NCBI GenBank assembly: GCA_947167515.1
Contig: CAMVIM010000001.1
Span: forward strand, 1 to 64,000
DNA: 64,000 nucleotides
Origin: an uncultured Prevotellaceae bacterium
GTDB taxonomy: Bacteria; Bacteroidota; Bacteroidia; Bacteroidales; Bacteroidaceae
Direction: 5' to 3'
Of the stretch, positions 1,942 through 15,761 are shown piece after piece. A program made the position numbers and the translations under genes. The stretch's first letter is position 1, and each line of letters begins with the position of its first letter. The notes beneath the pieces were generated by a model. The model was given only the letters and a program-made list of their open reading frames with translations, did no database searches and was not told the origin of the DNA.

Positions 1942-3210
1942 ATGACAGAAGAGAAAACATACTGCGACATTGCATGGGAACTGCTGGACGATGCTCGCGA
2001 GATAGATTGGACTATATGGAACACTGAGGCTGACGAACTGACACGGAACGTGGCTGATGTGATGTCGTGTGTGTTCCACCTTTCATGCACGGCATCTGCC
2101 CTGCTTGACCTGCGCCGCATGAGAGAGGGGGGGCATGAGATGTGCTTCGAGGATTACGCGATGGACAGACGCTTGCTGGGGCATCTGGAGATGCTGAAGG
2201 GAAAGGTCAGGAGAATGCAGGGGGTTATCGAAGATTATGCCGAGAGCCTTGTTGACGCTACTCCACAGGACGATGAGATATTGTTGGGTAAGATTCTGAA
2301 TCCGTGCGGAGAGGACGAGACCATCCGCAAAGTCGGCCATTTTGCACGGGAGTTCTGTCTGGCAAGACGCGACACCTACATGGCTTTATTGCCACTCTTC
2401 AAGCACTATCGGAAAATCATGGTGGAAACCATGCGCTTGTTCTATGGCGAGACTGCCGATTTCGTGTCGCTGTGGAAAAAGGAATATGAGGAATGGTTGC
2501 TTCAGTACCGCCCCTGCATTGAGCGCAAGTTGAAAAACGGCCTCTATAAGAGTAGCCTCTACGGAAAAACCATCCTGCCGCTTCTGTCCATGATTCCGAG
2601 CCGTGAGAATTGGGGCGAGGCACTTGGACTGAAGATGCAGCAAATCAGAGAGGATGACATCTACAAGTTCATCGACAACGATGAATTCCATGAGGTGGGT
2701 CTCCCCATCGAACTGACAGAGCGGTTGCTGATTGAAACGCTGAACAGCATCACCCTGAGCATGCACACGGCAGAACTTGAAGAATTGTCATACGACAGGC
2801 AGATGAAGACGTTCTATCGGCACATTGCCGAAATCAACATCCTGAAAGAGAAGATTGCCCTTCCGGCCGTGCCAGCCAGAGATAATCAACAGAGAGAGGA
2901 TAACAGTTATTTGATGGAATCGGAAGAGAACGAAGAACTGTCCGCTTACCCTGCTATGGCACTACTGGAGCGGCTGGTGAGAATCGCCATCAAAGAGAAG
3001 AAAAAGCCTAAATATATCCTCATGCCTGTGAGGGCTGCGAGGGAAGCGGGCGTTTCCATTCCCATCACCGACGTGAAGAGCATGAACGAGCATTTTGGCA
3101 CAGAACTGACACGGCAGAACTGGAGCCAATGGGTGAATGGCACCGCAAAATCTGGTTATGACCCCAAGGAACTGAACCCCATGAAAAGCCAATTCCTGAA
3201 ACTGGCTTAG
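1942..3210 (+). CDS. Unrecognised 422-residue protein
   Basis: I do not recognise this protein. It is soluble, largely helical and charged, with no signal peptide or membrane segment. The N-terminal ~310 residues are rich in acidic and aromatic residues. A low-complexity hinge (about residues 310-335, many N, Q, E and S) separates a basic C-terminal part (about 340-422) containing IKEKKKPKYILMPVRAA and an RQNWSQWVNG segment, which looks suited to nucleic-acid or protein binding. The ATG at 1942 follows the -7 box by 19 nt. A terminator hairpin lies at 3296-3321. Its neighbours are a KilA-N gene, a DUF5675-like gene and an HU-like gene, so a role in a mobile or phage-derived island is plausible but only inferred. 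Confidence 0.75.
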   Translation: MTEEKTYCDIAWELLDDAREIDWTIWNTEADELTRNVADVMSCVFHLSCTASALLDLRRMREGGHEMCFEDYAMDRRLLGHLEMLKGKVRRMQGVIEDYAESLVDATPQDDEILLGKILNPCGEDETIRKVGHFAREFCLARRDTYMALLPLFKHYRKIMVETMRLFYGETADFVSLWKKEYEEWLLQYRPCIERKLKNGLYKSSLYGKTILPLLSMIPSRENWGEALGLKMQQIREDDIYKFIDNDEFHEVGLPIELTERLLIETLNSITLSMHTAELEELSYDRQMKTFYRHIAEINILKEKIALPAVPARDNQQREDNSYLMESEENEELSAYPAMALLERLVRIAIKEKKKPKYILMPVRAAREAGVSIPITDVKSMNEHFGTELTRQNWSQWVNGTAKSGYDPKELNPMKSQFLKLA

Positions 3211-5352: not shown

Positions 5353-5483
5353 AGAAGTTATCGCTACGCTCGGAGTTATAGAAGTTATCGCTACGCTTAG
5401 AAGTTATAGACAAATGTATTGCTGCTGTTGATGAGTGCCGTCTTTTACTTCTTTAACTTCTCTAACTTCTTTAACTTCTTCAA
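5353..5483. repeat. Direct and inverted short repeats upstream of lpxH
   Basis: An 18-bp unit, agaagttatcgctacgct, occurs at 5353-5370 and again at 5380-5397 (27-bp spacing). Further right, 5448-5480 has several copies of taacttct, the inverse of the agaagtta start of the unit. Such low-complexity arrays are frequent between Bacteroidales genes. Confidence 0.55.
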
Positions 5484-5495
5484 AACAGGCTAGAA

Positions 5496-5891
5496 TCACA
5501 TAAATCCCAAGTCGAGTTTGGCTTCTTCGCTCATCATGTCCTTCGTCCATTCGGGTTCGAAGACCACGTTCACGTTCACGGTCTTCACGTCAGGGATGCC
5601 TTCCAACTTCTGCTGAATGTCTTCCAAAATGAAGTCTGCGGCAGGGCAGTTGGGGGCTGTGAAGGTCATGTCGATGTCGATGTCAAAGCCCCCCTCGTTC
5701 CCCCCAAGGGGGGATGAACCATCCGGACGGTTTCCCTCCCCCTTGGGGGAGTCGGAGGGGGCCATGTGGGGGCTTTCCTTCACATCAATCTTATAAATCA
5801 TTCCGAGGTCCCACACATTGACGGGAATCTCAGGGTCGAACACCGTCTTCAGGTATTCAACGGTCTTTTCTTCTACTTCGTATTTTGTCAT
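5496..5891 (-). CDS. DUF59/MIP18-family Fe-S assembly protein with repeat insertion
   Basis: Small acidic protein of the DUF59 (MIP18/SufT-like) family, thought to help deliver iron-sulfur clusters. The family signatures are clear: FDPEIPVNVWDLGMIY (about 18-33), TAPNCPAADFILED with the conserved cysteine, and the end EPEWTKDMMSEEAKLDLGFM. The protein has 131 residues where relatives have about 100-105. The excess is a ~30-residue segment, about residues 40-69, rich in P, S and G (PSDSPKGEGNRPDG, then SSPLGGNEGG), encoded by a 92-bp palindromic repeat at 5685-5776 that interrupts the beta hairpin between IDV and DIDMTF. The frame stays open, so the protein is probably made with a surface loop. 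It lies upstream of lpxH on the same strand, separated by 162 bp. Confidence 0.85.
   Translation of the reverse strand: MTKYEVEEKTVEYLKTVFDPEIPVNVWDLGMIYKIDVKESPHMAPSDSPKGEGNRPDGSSPLGGNEGGFDIDIDMTFTAPNCPAADFILEDIQQKLEGIPDVKTVNVNVVFEPEWTKDMMSEEAKLDLGFM
5685..5776. repeat. 92-bp palindromic element inside the DUF59 gene
   Basis: Terminal inverted repeats aaagccccc (5685-5693) and gggggcttt (5768-5776). Inside are paired C-runs and G-runs (ccccccaagggggg near 5700-5713 and ccctcccccttgggggag near 5734-5751). Its composition is unlike the host gene and like the C-rich repeat in the GH3 gene at 14574-14610. Confidence 0.75.
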
Positions 5892-5898
5892 ATCTTTA

Positions 5899-5970
5899 AT
5901 CTCTAAACTCTAATCTCTAAACTCTAACCTCTAACCCCTAAACTCTAAACCCTAAACTCTAAACCCTCAA
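5899..5970. repeat. Short-period tandem repeat (ctctaaa type)
   Basis: About nine degenerate copies of a 7-8 bp unit, ctctaaa/ctctaat/ccctaaa, fill the whole gap between the start of the DUF59 gene and the stop codon of radC (tag, read from 5973 to 5971). The unit is related to the actctca array found inside the GH3 gene at 14762-14798. Confidence 0.7.
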
Positions 5971-6729
5971 CTATATCTTCCCATTCTCGGCAAAGCTGTA
6001 ATAATCTCCTTCTGTCACGATGACATGGTCAATCATGCGCAGGTTGACTGCTTGTGCAGCTCGGTTCACCCGTTGAGTCAATTCCTCGTCGTAGCGGCTG
6101 GGTTTCAGGTTGCCGCTGGGATGGTTGTGTACGAGGATGAAACTGGTGGCATCGTGCAGTAGTGCCTTCTTGAGCAGCATCCGCACATCTACAGTGGTTT
6201 CGGTCAGACCTCCAGTGCTGAGTTGGGCGAAATGGAGCAGGCGCGCATTGTTGTTGAGCAACAGCACCCAGCTTTTCTCGTGGGTGAGTGTCTGCAGGTG
6301 TGGTGTCATGAACCTCAACACATCGGCACCTGTGCGGAATTGCGTAATGTCTTGGCAGTCCTCCATCATGCGTCGTTTACCAATCTCGGCGGCAGCGAGG
6401 ATGGTCAGTGCCTTTGCCTCACCAATGCCGTTGTAGCGCATGAGGTCTTGCAGCGTCATATAGTTGAGGTTGCGGAGTGAATTTCCACAGTCGCCCAGCA
6501 CCTCTTGCATCAGTTCCACTGCTGTCTTCTTCTTGGTGCCCCCTCCGATGAGAATGGCAAGCAACTCGGCATTGGTCAGTGCGCCCACTCCTTTTGTCAT
6601 GAGCTTCTCACGGGGACGGTCTTCTTCCGCTTGCTGCTTGATGGGAGTGTGAGAGATTGATTCCTCCACCTCTTCCTTCACCTTCTGCACCGGTTCCTCG
6701 TTGAATGGTTGGAAGTCTTTCCTAATCAT
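5971..6729 (-). CDS. radC: RadC family JAB-domain protein
   Basis: RadC-family protein of 252 residues. Despite the name, a direct role in DNA repair is not established; the JAMM/JAB domain resembles metal-dependent peptidases. Visible are the N-terminal helix-hairpin-helix part (GVGALTNAELLAILIGGG and YNGIGEAKALTILAAAEIG) and the JAMM motif HNHPSGNLKPSRYD in the C-terminal third. The ATG at 6729 (MIRKDFQPFN) overlaps the stop of the glycosyltransferase by 8 nt, suggesting translational coupling. A longer frame to 6810 would reach far into that gene and is rejected. The N-terminal ~35 residues are charged and variable. The stop codon abuts a short-period tandem repeat. Confidence 0.9.
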   Translation of the reverse strand: MIRKDFQPFNEEPVQKVKEEVEESISHTPIKQQAEEDRPREKLMTKGVGALTNAELLAILIGGGTKKKTAVELMQEVLGDCGNSLRNLNYMTLQDLMRYNGIGEAKALTILAAAEIGKRRMMEDCQDITQFRTGADVLRFMTPHLQTLTHEKSWVLLLNNNARLLHFAQLSTGGLTETTVDVRMLLKKALLHDATSFILVHNHPSGNLKPSRYDEELTQRVNRAAQAVNLRMIDHVIVTEGDYYSFAENGKI

Positions 6730-13481: not shown

Positions 13482-15761
13482 ATGAAGAAAATCATCTTTT
13501 TGGCATCGCTCCTCCTGACTGCGATGACCACCACCGCACAAGTTTACCTCGACCCCAACGCACCGCTTGAAGAGCGTGTGCAGGATGCGCTCAGCCGCAT
13601 GACCACGCATGAGAAAATCCTGGTTCTGCATGCACAGAGCAAGTTCACCAGCGCAGGTGTGCCACGTCTGGGCATCCGTCAGCTCAACATGGACGATGGG
13701 CCTCATGGTGTGCGCGAGGAATTGGAGTGGAATACCTGGAACGTGGCCCGATGGACGAACGACTCCATTGTGGCGTTCCCCTCCCTTACCTGTCTGGCCG
13801 CTACTTGGAACCGCGACCTCTCCACCCTCTATGGCCACAGCGTGAGCGAAGAGTTTGCCTTCCGTGGCAAGGACATCATGCTCGGCCCAGGTGTGAACAT
13901 CCAGCGCACCCCGATGAATGGCCGTGCCTTTGAATACATGGGCGAAGACCCGATGCTCGCAGGCGAGATGGTGGTGCCCTACATCAGTGCCGCTCAGAAG
14001 AACGGTGTGGCCTGCTGTCTGAAGCATTTCGTGCTGAACGACCAAGAGATAGACCGTTTCAACGTCAATGTGAACGTGTCGGAACGTGCCATGCGCGAAA
14101 TATACCTCTTCCCTTTCCAGCGGGCAGTCGAGAAGGCGCATGTCTATACCATCATGGGCAGTTATAACCTCTGGAACGGTGACCACTGTTGCCACAACGA
14201 TGCCCTGCTTAATGGCATCCTGAAGAAGGAGTGGGGATGGGACGGTGCCCTGGTCAGCGACTGGGGCGGTACCACCAACACCCTGCAGGCAGCCTATGGA
14301 GGTCTTGACATCGAGATGGGTACATGGACAGACGGCAAGGTGAAGGAAGCCCAGCATGGCTACAGCGCCTACTACCTTGCCAACCCTTTCGAAAAACTCA
14401 TCAATGAGGGAACCATCCCCATGAGCGTGCTCGACGAGAAGGTGGCCCGTGTGCTTCGTACCATCTTCCGCACGGCCATGAATCCCAAGAAAGTTATTGG
14501 TTCTCAATGCTCAGAAGCTCATTACGACGCTTGTCGTCAGATTGGTGAAGAGGGCATTGTGTTGCTGAAGAATAGCCCCCTCCCATCCTCCCCCAAGGGG
14601 GAGGGGCTTTTGCCGCTCACGTCTGAGAAGCTGGCAAGGCTTTCTAAAGGCGAGGGGCTTCGCATCCTTGTCGTTGGCGAAAATGCCACCCGTTCCCTCA
14701 CCCAAGGTGGTGGTTCTTCCGAACTCAAGACTCTCCGCGATGTCTCCCCATGGGAAGCCCTTAACTCTCAACTCTCAACTGTCAATTGTCAACTGTCACT
14801 CGCCCAAGGTTACAAGTCCGGCCGTTCCATCTACGACCATGTCGACCCCGTTGACCCTGCCGAAAACGCCCGTCTGAAGGCAGAAGCCCTCGACGCAGCC
14901 CGTCAAGCCGACCTCATCCTCTTCATTGGTGGCTTCAACAAAAACCACAAGCAGGACTGCGAGAACGGCGACCGCGAGAGCTACGACCTCCCCTTCGGAC
15001 AATCTGACCTCATCAGCGAGCTTGCCAAGATTCAGCCCAACCTCGTGGTGGTCACCTTTGGCGGCAACCCCTACGCCATGCCGTGGCTGCCCAAGGTCAA
15101 GGCATTGCTCCATTGCTGGTATCTTGGCAGCGAGTCGGGCACCGCTTTGGCCAATGTCCTCACAGGCAAGGTCAATCCTTCGGGCAAGCTTCCCGTTACC
15201 TTTGCCAAGCGCCTTGAAGACTATCCCTACGCCAAGTTTGGCGAAGAGGCCTATCCTGGCATCACAGGCGTGCAGGTTCCTGCCAACAGTGCAGGCGAGG
15301 TACCCCATCGTCAAGTTTACTACAAGGAGGACATCTATGTGGGCTACCGTGGTTTCGACCACGACAAGGTGCAGCCCCAGTTCCCCTTCGGCTTCGGCCT
15401 TAGCTACACCACCTTCGCTTACGGCAAACCCTCCGTCACCATGGATGGCGATTCCTTCACCATCACCGTGACCCTCACCAACACAGGAAAGGCCGCAGGC
15501 AAGGAAACCGCCCAAATCTACGTCTCAGCTCCCCAGAGCAAGATTCTTCCCAAACCTCAGAAGGAACTCAAAACCTTTGCTAAAACCCGTCTTCTCGCCC
15601 CAGGCGAAAGCGAAACCCTCCGCATGACCATCCCACGCCGCGACCTTGCCTCGTGGAACGAGACCACCCACTCCTGGCAAGTGGACAGCGGCACCTACAC
15701 TTTCCTCGTGGCTGCCTCTGCCACCGATGTGAAGGGAAAGGCAATCGTGAACATACCATAA
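13482..15761 (+). CDS. Glycoside hydrolase family 3 (beta-glucosidase type)
   Basis: Exported GH3 enzyme of 759 residues (signal peptide about 1-20, ...LLTAMTTTAQ), probably periplasmic, releasing terminal beta-linked sugars. Domain order: GH3 N-terminal barrel (about 30-340) with the nucleophile D260 in LVSDWGG, the GH3 C-terminal sandwich (about 360-600), and a fibronectin III-like domain (about 650-755, after FPFGFGLSYTTF). Two stretches look inserted: about residues 365-394 (SPLPSSPKGEG...LSKGEG) between LLKN and LRILVVGEN, encoded by a C-rich palindrome, and about 427-439 (NSQLSTVNCQLS), encoded by a 7-8 bp tandem array. Both keep the frame. The exact substrate (glucoside, xyloside or other) cannot be told. 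It lies 18 nt after cydB and ends at a bidirectional terminator. Confidence 0.9.
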   Translation: MKKIIFLASLLLTAMTTTAQVYLDPNAPLEERVQDALSRMTTHEKILVLHAQSKFTSAGVPRLGIRQLNMDDGPHGVREELEWNTWNVARWTNDSIVAFPSLTCLAATWNRDLSTLYGHSVSEEFAFRGKDIMLGPGVNIQRTPMNGRAFEYMGEDPMLAGEMVVPYISAAQKNGVACCLKHFVLNDQEIDRFNVNVNVSERAMREIYLFPFQRAVEKAHVYTIMGSYNLWNGDHCCHNDALLNGILKKEWGWDGALVSDWGGTTNTLQAAYGGLDIEMGTWTDGKVKEAQHGYSAYYLANPFEKLINEGTIPMSVLDEKVARVLRTIFRTAMNPKKVIGSQCSEAHYDACRQIGEEGIVLLKNSPLPSSPKGEGLLPLTSEKLARLSKGEGLRILVVGENATRSLTQGGGSSELKTLRDVSPWEALNSQLSTVNCQLSLAQGYKSGRSIYDHVDPVDPAENARLKAEALDAARQADLILFIGGFNKNHKQDCENGDRESYDLPFGQSDLISELAKIQPNLVVVTFGGNPYAMPWLPKVKALLHCWYLGSESGTALANVLTGKVNPSGKLPVTFAKRLEDYPYAKFGEEAYPGITGVQVPANSAGEVPHRQVYYKEDIYVGYRGFDHDKVQPQFPFGFGLSYTTFAYGKPSVTMDGDSFTITVTLTNTGKAAGKETAQIYVSAPQSKILPKPQKELKTFAKTRLLAPGESETLRMTIPRRDLASWNETTHSWQVDSGTYTFLVAASATDVKGKAIVNIP
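14574..14610. repeat. C-rich palindromic repeat inside the GH3 gene
   Basis: agcccc (14574-14579) and ggggct (14603-14608) flank the perfect stem cctcccccaagggggagg (14587-14604). The sequence is close to the ccctcccccttgggggag core of the element in the DUF59 gene. A further gcgaggggctt lies at 14650-14660, so the inserted unit may extend to about 14660. Confidence 0.7.
14762..14798 (+). repeat. Tandem 7-8 bp repeat inside the GH3 gene
   Basis: Five degenerate units of the type aactctca, actctca, actgtca, attgtca, actgtca. The translation NSQLSTVNCQLS has no counterpart in a normal GH3 sandwich domain. Confidence 0.65.

Follow-up and report, generated by a model that had tools for sequence, protein, structure and literature searches.

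In a Prevotellaceae genome, a gene for a DUF59 protein carries an in-frame copy of a palindromic repeat, and the same repeat family recurs in frame in many unrelated genes of that genome. Most inserts common to species are far less diverged than the genes around them, the exceptions being TrpA, RecO and the DUF59 insert of the genome studied (G000). We consider it likely that the DUF59 insert represents one copy of an interspersed palindromic element, that such copies are tolerated in frame in protein loops, and that the resulting alleles have spread on short tracts. The earlier interpretation of this insert as an in-frame repeat insertion, made from the sequence alone, is supported.

The palindromic insert of the DUF59 gene

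The features described here are collected in Table 1, where the window denotes the whole stretch of DNA that was analysed (64,000 nt). By sequence, the DUF59 protein has PDB relatives 3lno, 2cu6, 1uwd and 5ird; in the alignment with chain 3lno, its residues 41-72 face a four-residue gap (44-47) between the matched parts of that chain. The insert peptide lies around SSPLGGNEGGFDIDIDMTF. The frame stays open across the insert, the family motifs are kept on both flanks and the arms measure 25 nt, which confirms the palindromic repeat in frame proposed by the sequence-only reading. That reading had put the excess over the family at about 30 residues. The protein is indeed longer, but by 20-26 residues depending on the reference: 23 residues compared with G023 (108 residues), the closest of the short relatives, 20 relative to the usual short congener (111 residues) and about 26 relative to the shortest members from other families (105 residues).

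Table 1. Coordinates of the repeat copies, their host genes and related loop sequences.
Feature	Sequence	Position	Strand	Basis or remark
DUF59/FeS_assembly_P gene, 131 aa	window	5496..5891	-	ORF; PF01883 at 1e-13 in two stretches
Inserted codons, residues 41-68	window	5688..5771	-	relative to closest short relative G023; 26 aligned DUF59 proteins, loop DNA of 12
Palindromic element, inverted pair of REP-like halves around CCGTCCGGATGG	window	5688..5762	-	inverted-repeat search, folds, half-element model R1
Type A half (GCCCCCTCCGACTCCCCCAAGGGGGAG...), read as APSDSPKGEGNRPDG	window	5723..5762	-	R1 match, 45.0 bits
Type B half (GCCCCCCTCGTTCCCCCCAAGGGGGG...), read antisense as PDGSSPLGGNEGG	window	5688..5726	+	R1 match, 36.6 bits
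92-bp frame with outer 9-bp arms	window	5685..5776	.	not conserved in relatives
Beta-glucosidase-like gene with single half element in frame	window	13482..15761	+	ORF; also hosts tandem-repeat-like loop
Single half element in frame, NSPLPSSPKGEGLL, in GH3-like gene	window	14574..14606	+	R1, 33.4 bits; frame
Second-family site	L102 (G000:C9:21238)	3039-3079		
Second-family site	L012	1958-2039		
Second-family site	L165 (G017:C5:17209)	2510-2548		
Tandem-repeat-like loop host, MutY of G017	L211			
Tandem-repeat-like loop host, TrpA of G016	L183			

The two arms of the element (5688-5712 and 5738-5762) are 80% complementary, and its RNA is predicted to fold at -55.6 kcal/mol (z -2.5; 4 of 200 shuffles fold equally well). 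The outer arms aaagccccc/gggggcttt noticed earlier do exist (5685-5693 and 5768-5776), but they are not conserved among the seven congeners whose loop contains repeat DNA. Nor does the excess coincide exactly with a 92-bp element, as had been thought: the repeated unit spans about 5688-5762.

Alignment with DUF59 homologs did not bring up a shared loop with unrelated DNA in many genera. The loop contains repeat DNA in seven of 24 congeners (G002, G003, G005, G011, G013, G014 and G017); in 16 it is short and of unrelated sequence, and in one genome the gene was not found. Together with G000, these seven are exactly the genus members with at least 11 matches to the 92 bp, the remaining genomes having at most three. 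In six members from other families (six read, 16 searched), the loop comprises about five residues, and the genus-level loop is about six residues longer than this even where the element is lacking. The short loop of G023, AAAGCGACGATGAGGGGCT (L047), resembles both ends of the element minus its middle and could be a deletion scar instead of a virgin site. Short tandem arrays with periods of 9 and 14 occupy both gaps flanking the DUF59 gene (window positions 5441-5485 and 5883-5975).

A family of half elements in one genus

Aligned copies define a half element that consists of a type A part (AGCCCCCTCC..A..CTCCCCCAAGGGGGAG) or a type B part (AGCCCCCCTCTTATCCCCCCAAGGGGGGA), followed by CCATCCGG, CCGTCCGG or CCATGCGG. 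Some halves stand alone, with a length of about 31-43 nt; others are joined head to head and share CCATCCGGATGG or a variant of it, giving inverted pairs of about 76 bp. Searched with the 92 bp, the own genome yielded 29 blastn matches (either strand of a palindrome can match) at 24 places. With the best other copy at E 3.3e-26, this recurrence, for which the genome search had been proposed, is far above chance. The 92 bp found matches in 13 of 41 genomes, all within one Prevotella-like genus. The half-element model R1 gave 54 matches at E<=1 in the own genome, and the 42 with E<=0.001 merge to 30 places; R1 scored 150 of 1621 first-look candidates, and the counts may therefore be low. Rfam returned no match for the element.

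Among the matches listed, the exact type A pattern occurred at least 120 times in genome contigs, in at least 113 stretches, all with Bacteroidota titles. Of the 113 stretches listed, 110 are titled Prevotella(ceae), Bacteroidaceae, Minthosoma or Bacteroidales, and three are not Bacteroidales by name (two Draconibacterium and one Bacteroidetes bin). One copy in a Draconibacterium bin (L274, 4508-4537) directly follows the stop of an ORF. A single viral contig carries one exact copy (L331, 8825-8853), likewise directly after an ORF, as judged from the nearby ORFs; we take the preceding ORF to encode a large terminase.

Positions and reading frames of the copies

In the own genome, 27 of the 30 places are in frame, in 24 genes, 23 of which have a Pfam match at E<=0.001; such matches do not always span the insert, those of GHL10 and CarboxypepD lying elsewhere in the protein. 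The hosts are the genes for DUF59, CTP synthase, LeuRS, topoisomerase (two places), RNase HII, TrpA, RsgA, RecO, MutY, phosphoglycerate mutase, a MurF-Alr fusion (two places), a CobJ-CbiC fusion, an M20 peptidase, DPP IV, GH95, GH43, GH3, GHL10, an HI0933-like protein, a flippase (two places), a nucleotidyltransferase and a CarboxypepD-reg protein, and two closely similar DnaG-type zinc-finger genes. No long ORF covers C39:27505 or C39:27638, and the remaining place, C3:171673, has neither a clear assignment nor a Pfam match. The second host gene of the window is, on reading its sequence, presumably GH3/beta-glucosidase-like.

In G017, 82 half matches were obtained; with one at a contig end set aside, the other 81 fall into 66 places, about 37 of them in frame by reading, with calls backed by Pfam or by an ortholog. 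Hosts in this genome include AlaRS and IleRS, with two places each, and LeuRS (L137, 2011-5097), where five half-element matches at three sites lie within an open frame of 1029 residues. Many other places in G017 are between or beside genes, some, by eye, right after TAA.

Exact type A copies were compared with random positions of the same loci. Of the 113 listed non-edge copies, in a named-contig sample weighted towards few genomes, 36 are inside ORFs open for 60 codons on each side, 26 are uncertain and 51 are not, as against 375 of 565 random positions inside such ORFs. The element is thus depleted from genes in the listed sample, the own genome being at the rich end. Depletion is what survival would predict. 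We do not claim targeting or a strong preference for genes: the high in-frame proportion of the own genome stands against about 37 of 66 places in G017 and against the listed sample.

All six frames of a type A half are free of stops, while a type B half and the DUF59 element each have one stop-containing frame of six. Among halves with clean arms (5/5 or 6/6) in genes of G000 and G017, 33 of 40 use the frame that reads TCC-CCC as Ser-Pro, producing peptides such as SPKGE, SPLGE, SPQGG or SPLGG. The bias has a binomial P of 2e-10 relative to the expected one third, a value to be read with the proviso that neither the two halves of an element nor paralogs count as independent, and it is weaker in the listed named-contig sample (18 of 36). 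Since nearly every frame is stop-free and most halves nevertheless use this one, the surviving copies, at least those of the richer genomes, seem to favour hydrophilic frames.

Other repeats were seen in similar surroundings. A likely second palindromic family, with a CCCCGTAATGGGG-like core, lies in frame in a UPF0004/radical SAM protein, an M20 peptidase and an ROK kinase, and is read as peptides like LTLPRNGEG...LPPHYGGG. Peptides resembling tandem repeats (NSQLSTVNCQLS, GELGMRNEELGIG and QQSTVNSQQST) are also found in frame. Since they lie in the same loops or in others, protein loops may be open to repeats of several kinds.

Insert-free orthologs

All 14 genes tested besides DUF59, with gene segments joined as one query, have an insert-free ortholog in at least one of G010, G016 and G024. 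Loop lengths vary between genomes even where the element is lacking, and DNA alignment of six genes indicated that the element often replaces part of the host loop. In these six genes, aligned with their empty sites, the loops differ too much for a target-site duplication to stand out, and none was seen by eye. Filled, insert-free and re-filled states of the same loop coexist in sister species.

Divergence of shared inserts

Inserts common to G000 and G017 were compared with their flanks in nine genes, a set that leaves out TrpA, RecO and DUF59. Synonymous differences amount to 11.0/172.3 (0.064) in the inserts and to 316.2/688.5 (0.459) in the flanks; the corresponding nonsynonymous values are 9.0/502.7 (0.018) and 146.8/2443.5 (0.060). 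When the three omitted genes are added, the pooled synonymous values for the 12 genes become 0.120 in the inserts versus 0.475 in the flanks. The DPP IV insert is identical across 81 nt, private departures from the family consensus in the second arm included, and the first flank mismatch is found 1-3 codons beyond the insert end on both sides. As for DUF59, the insert region shows 0 differences in 108 positions in all six pairs of G003, G011, G014 and G017, while elsewhere in the gene 1-12 of 37 and 1-19 of 60 third positions differ (8/37 and 18/60 between G014 and G011; 7/37 and 1/60 between G017 and G003).

Not all shared inserts are frozen, however. TrpA shows 19 differences in 84 nt, the DUF59 insert of G000 differs from that of G017 or G003 at 15 of 90 positions, and RecO has a different insert in the genomes compared.

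Third-position divergence was followed outward from the inserts in 12 genes that we chose as having inserts plainly at the same site (TrpA was kept, DUF59 and RecO were left out), comparing G000 with G017 or G003. Two pairs with a gene-wide divergence under 0.2 (MurF-Alr and CobJ-CbiC with G017) were skipped, which leaves 15 pairs. Divergence is 0.066 in the inserts and climbs to 0.119 at 1-2 codons, 0.278 at 3-5, 0.273 at 6-10, 0.293 at 11-20 and 0.362 at 21-40, and then to 0.380 and 0.405, whereas random sites of the same genes give a flat profile at 0.36-0.40. In 13 of 15 pairs, and in 11 of 12 genes, divergence is lower in the near flank (3-20 codons) than in the far flank (Wilcoxon P 0.0005); in every one of the 15 pairs, the insert is less diverged than the near flank. 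The dip levels off within about 20-40 codons. Several pairs have further stretches of the gene with equally low divergence. In the comparison of G003 with G017, antisense ORFs were disregarded.

No dip was detected between insert-free orthologs, or between filled genes of G000 and their empty orthologs; a weak dip could be hidden in these controls because the control genomes are more diverged (about 0.5 at third positions). Five sites carry an insert in G000 that G017 does not share; there, near-flank divergence is below that of the far flank in two cases, equals it in one and exceeds it in two.

Discussion

We propose that copies of the element landing in genes survive if the added length keeps the frame and if the site is a tolerant loop. 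The element would then be read as a linker rich in Ser, Pro, Gly, Lys and Glu, a role for which it is suited because five of the six frames of the DUF59 element, and all six of the type A half, are without stops. Once made, an insertion allele may spread between species by homologous recombination on short tracts, and it would be younger than its host gene because of this presumed passage from species to species. The divergence step at the insert edges could be sharpened by constraint acting on the inserts. The behaviour of TrpA, RecO and the DUF59 gene of G000 does not fit a spread on short tracts, and some inserts, such as that of DPP IV, have a matching flank of only 1-3 codons, shorter than usual recombination tracts; the genomes compared are drafts. 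Tentatively, the argument can be carried further, with inserts acting repeatedly and in many genes as small introgressing modules on tracts between a few dozen and a few hundred bases long. If so, protein loops common to species would be swapped and rebuilt faster than the surrounding proteins evolve, and a non-coding repeat would be subject to homing-like drive, or to repeated adaptive sweeps, acting at the protein level.

How the element moves is a separate question. Its build recalls REPINs, which are likewise inverted pairs of short hairpins around a spacer, and it is conceivable, if somewhat doubtful, that a RAYT-like HUH enzyme moves the copies as repeats of the REP/REPIN type and that the insertions into genes are tolerated accidents. 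Single hairpins coexist with head-to-head pairs, as this would entail, some copies of G017 follow TAA by eye, and the genus encodes Y1/HUH-like proteins carrying a DHLH motif, of which the own genome has distant relatives. The HUH-like protein of G003 is encoded at L327, 1246-2223. The Y1 family (PF01797) has matches in three of seven element-rich congeners, past the cut-off in two, and two of the proteins read as HUH-like by the DHLH motif; homologs of one HUH-like protein are present in 15 of 25 genomes searched, the own included. For one HUH protein, PHROGs gave no match. But several of the genomes with homologs are without the element, and enzyme presence does not track copy number: G001, G004 and G008 have the enzyme and no element match. 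In the sections consulted of PMC2817692, every RAYT gene is said to lie between two inverted REPs; here, none of the four enzyme loci (L327-L330) has an element within about 3 kb. The relatives in the own genome (C52 and C3:155877) have, among the matches listed, no half-element match on the contig of the one or within 12 kb of the other. No GTAG or CGTC tag is conserved. With PF01797 unmatched in the own genome at E<=0.001 and no copies at the four enzyme loci, the search for a link to RAYTs did not support one.

Alternatively, the frozen inserts could be old and vertically inherited, and held by selection on the DNA or RNA hairpin (protein binding, mRNA structure) or on the peptide. The palindrome folds better than 196 of 200 shuffles, and inserts differ less than their near flanks in all 15 pairs, both as selection would have it. 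We nonetheless judge this account unlikely: private departures from the consensus are conserved too (DPP IV, 81 nt), as they would not be under a family-wide selection for the hairpin, the lowered divergence extends into the flanks, and at some loci, DUF59 among them, the whole insert changes between species. An artefact of metagenome-bin assembly is very improbable, draft genomes and the capacity of repeats to mislead assemblers notwithstanding, since identical inserts occupy identical sites in assemblies of different names (G017, G003, G011, G014 and G002) and the frame is kept at 27 of 30 places. An ancestral GC-rich DUF59 loop without any insertion, to which the somewhat longer loop of the genus might point, is ruled out by 16 of 24 congeners, whose loops are short and of unrelated DNA, and by the recurrence of the 92 bp across the genome, with the same DNA family in 23 other genes.

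Among known systems, the palindromic elements of Rickettsia (RPEs) and Wolbachia also place one palindromic family in frame in many unrelated genes as a recognisable peptide, as set out in the parts consulted of PMC3767692 and PMC10969869. The comparison with RPEs made in the sequence-only reading holds for this behaviour, with 27 of 30 places and 24 genes here, but not for membership in the family. RPEs measure 100-150 bp or about 150 bp in the same parts of those sources, while the element described here measures about 31-76 bp, forms hairpins with C/G runs and has, among the matches listed, Bacteroidota as hosts; moreover, according to an abstract on R. japonica, every rickettsial ortholog carried an insert, whereas insert-free orthologs are common here. 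The element thus appears to work like an RPE while belonging to another family, set apart by its size and by the hosts listed. Closer in architecture are the intragenic GTAG/CGTC REPs of Opitutus terrae, Rickettsia conorii and others, for which the sections consulted of PMC3733652 report hairpins and dimers inside ORFs, dimers that add 20-30 residues, genes hit twice and tRNA synthetases among the targets. Those sections name Bacteroidetes among the phyla with CGTC repeats and no Prevotella gene. The present element shares the single units, the head-to-head dimers, the position inside ORFs and tRNA synthetases as hosts, but, by reading, GTAG occurs in 0 of 19 halves and CGTC in 4 of 19, where it lies inside CCGTCCGG instead of forming a constant tag next to the stem. 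Coding MITEs from other bacteria, described in the consulted part of PMC10969869 as short non-autonomous repeats able to fuse in frame, resemble it in that ability; a possible difference is that no target duplication was seen by eye in six genes, whose loops differ strongly. Among the titles and first abstract lines listed from the open literature, with subscription journals mostly outside it, there was no report of such palindromes in coding sequence of Prevotella or other Bacteroidales.

Coding palindromes are known from Rickettsia and intragenic REPs from some other bacteria (the latter in the consulted sections of PMC3733652), and the large set found in a gut genus makes the acceptance of repeats by protein loops testable. 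It opens to test how a repeat becomes part of a protein and whether it spreads by selection or by a drive of its own. For these species, it means that extra segments in enzymes such as tRNA synthetases, CTP synthase and TrpA can be DNA repeats and not features of the protein family.
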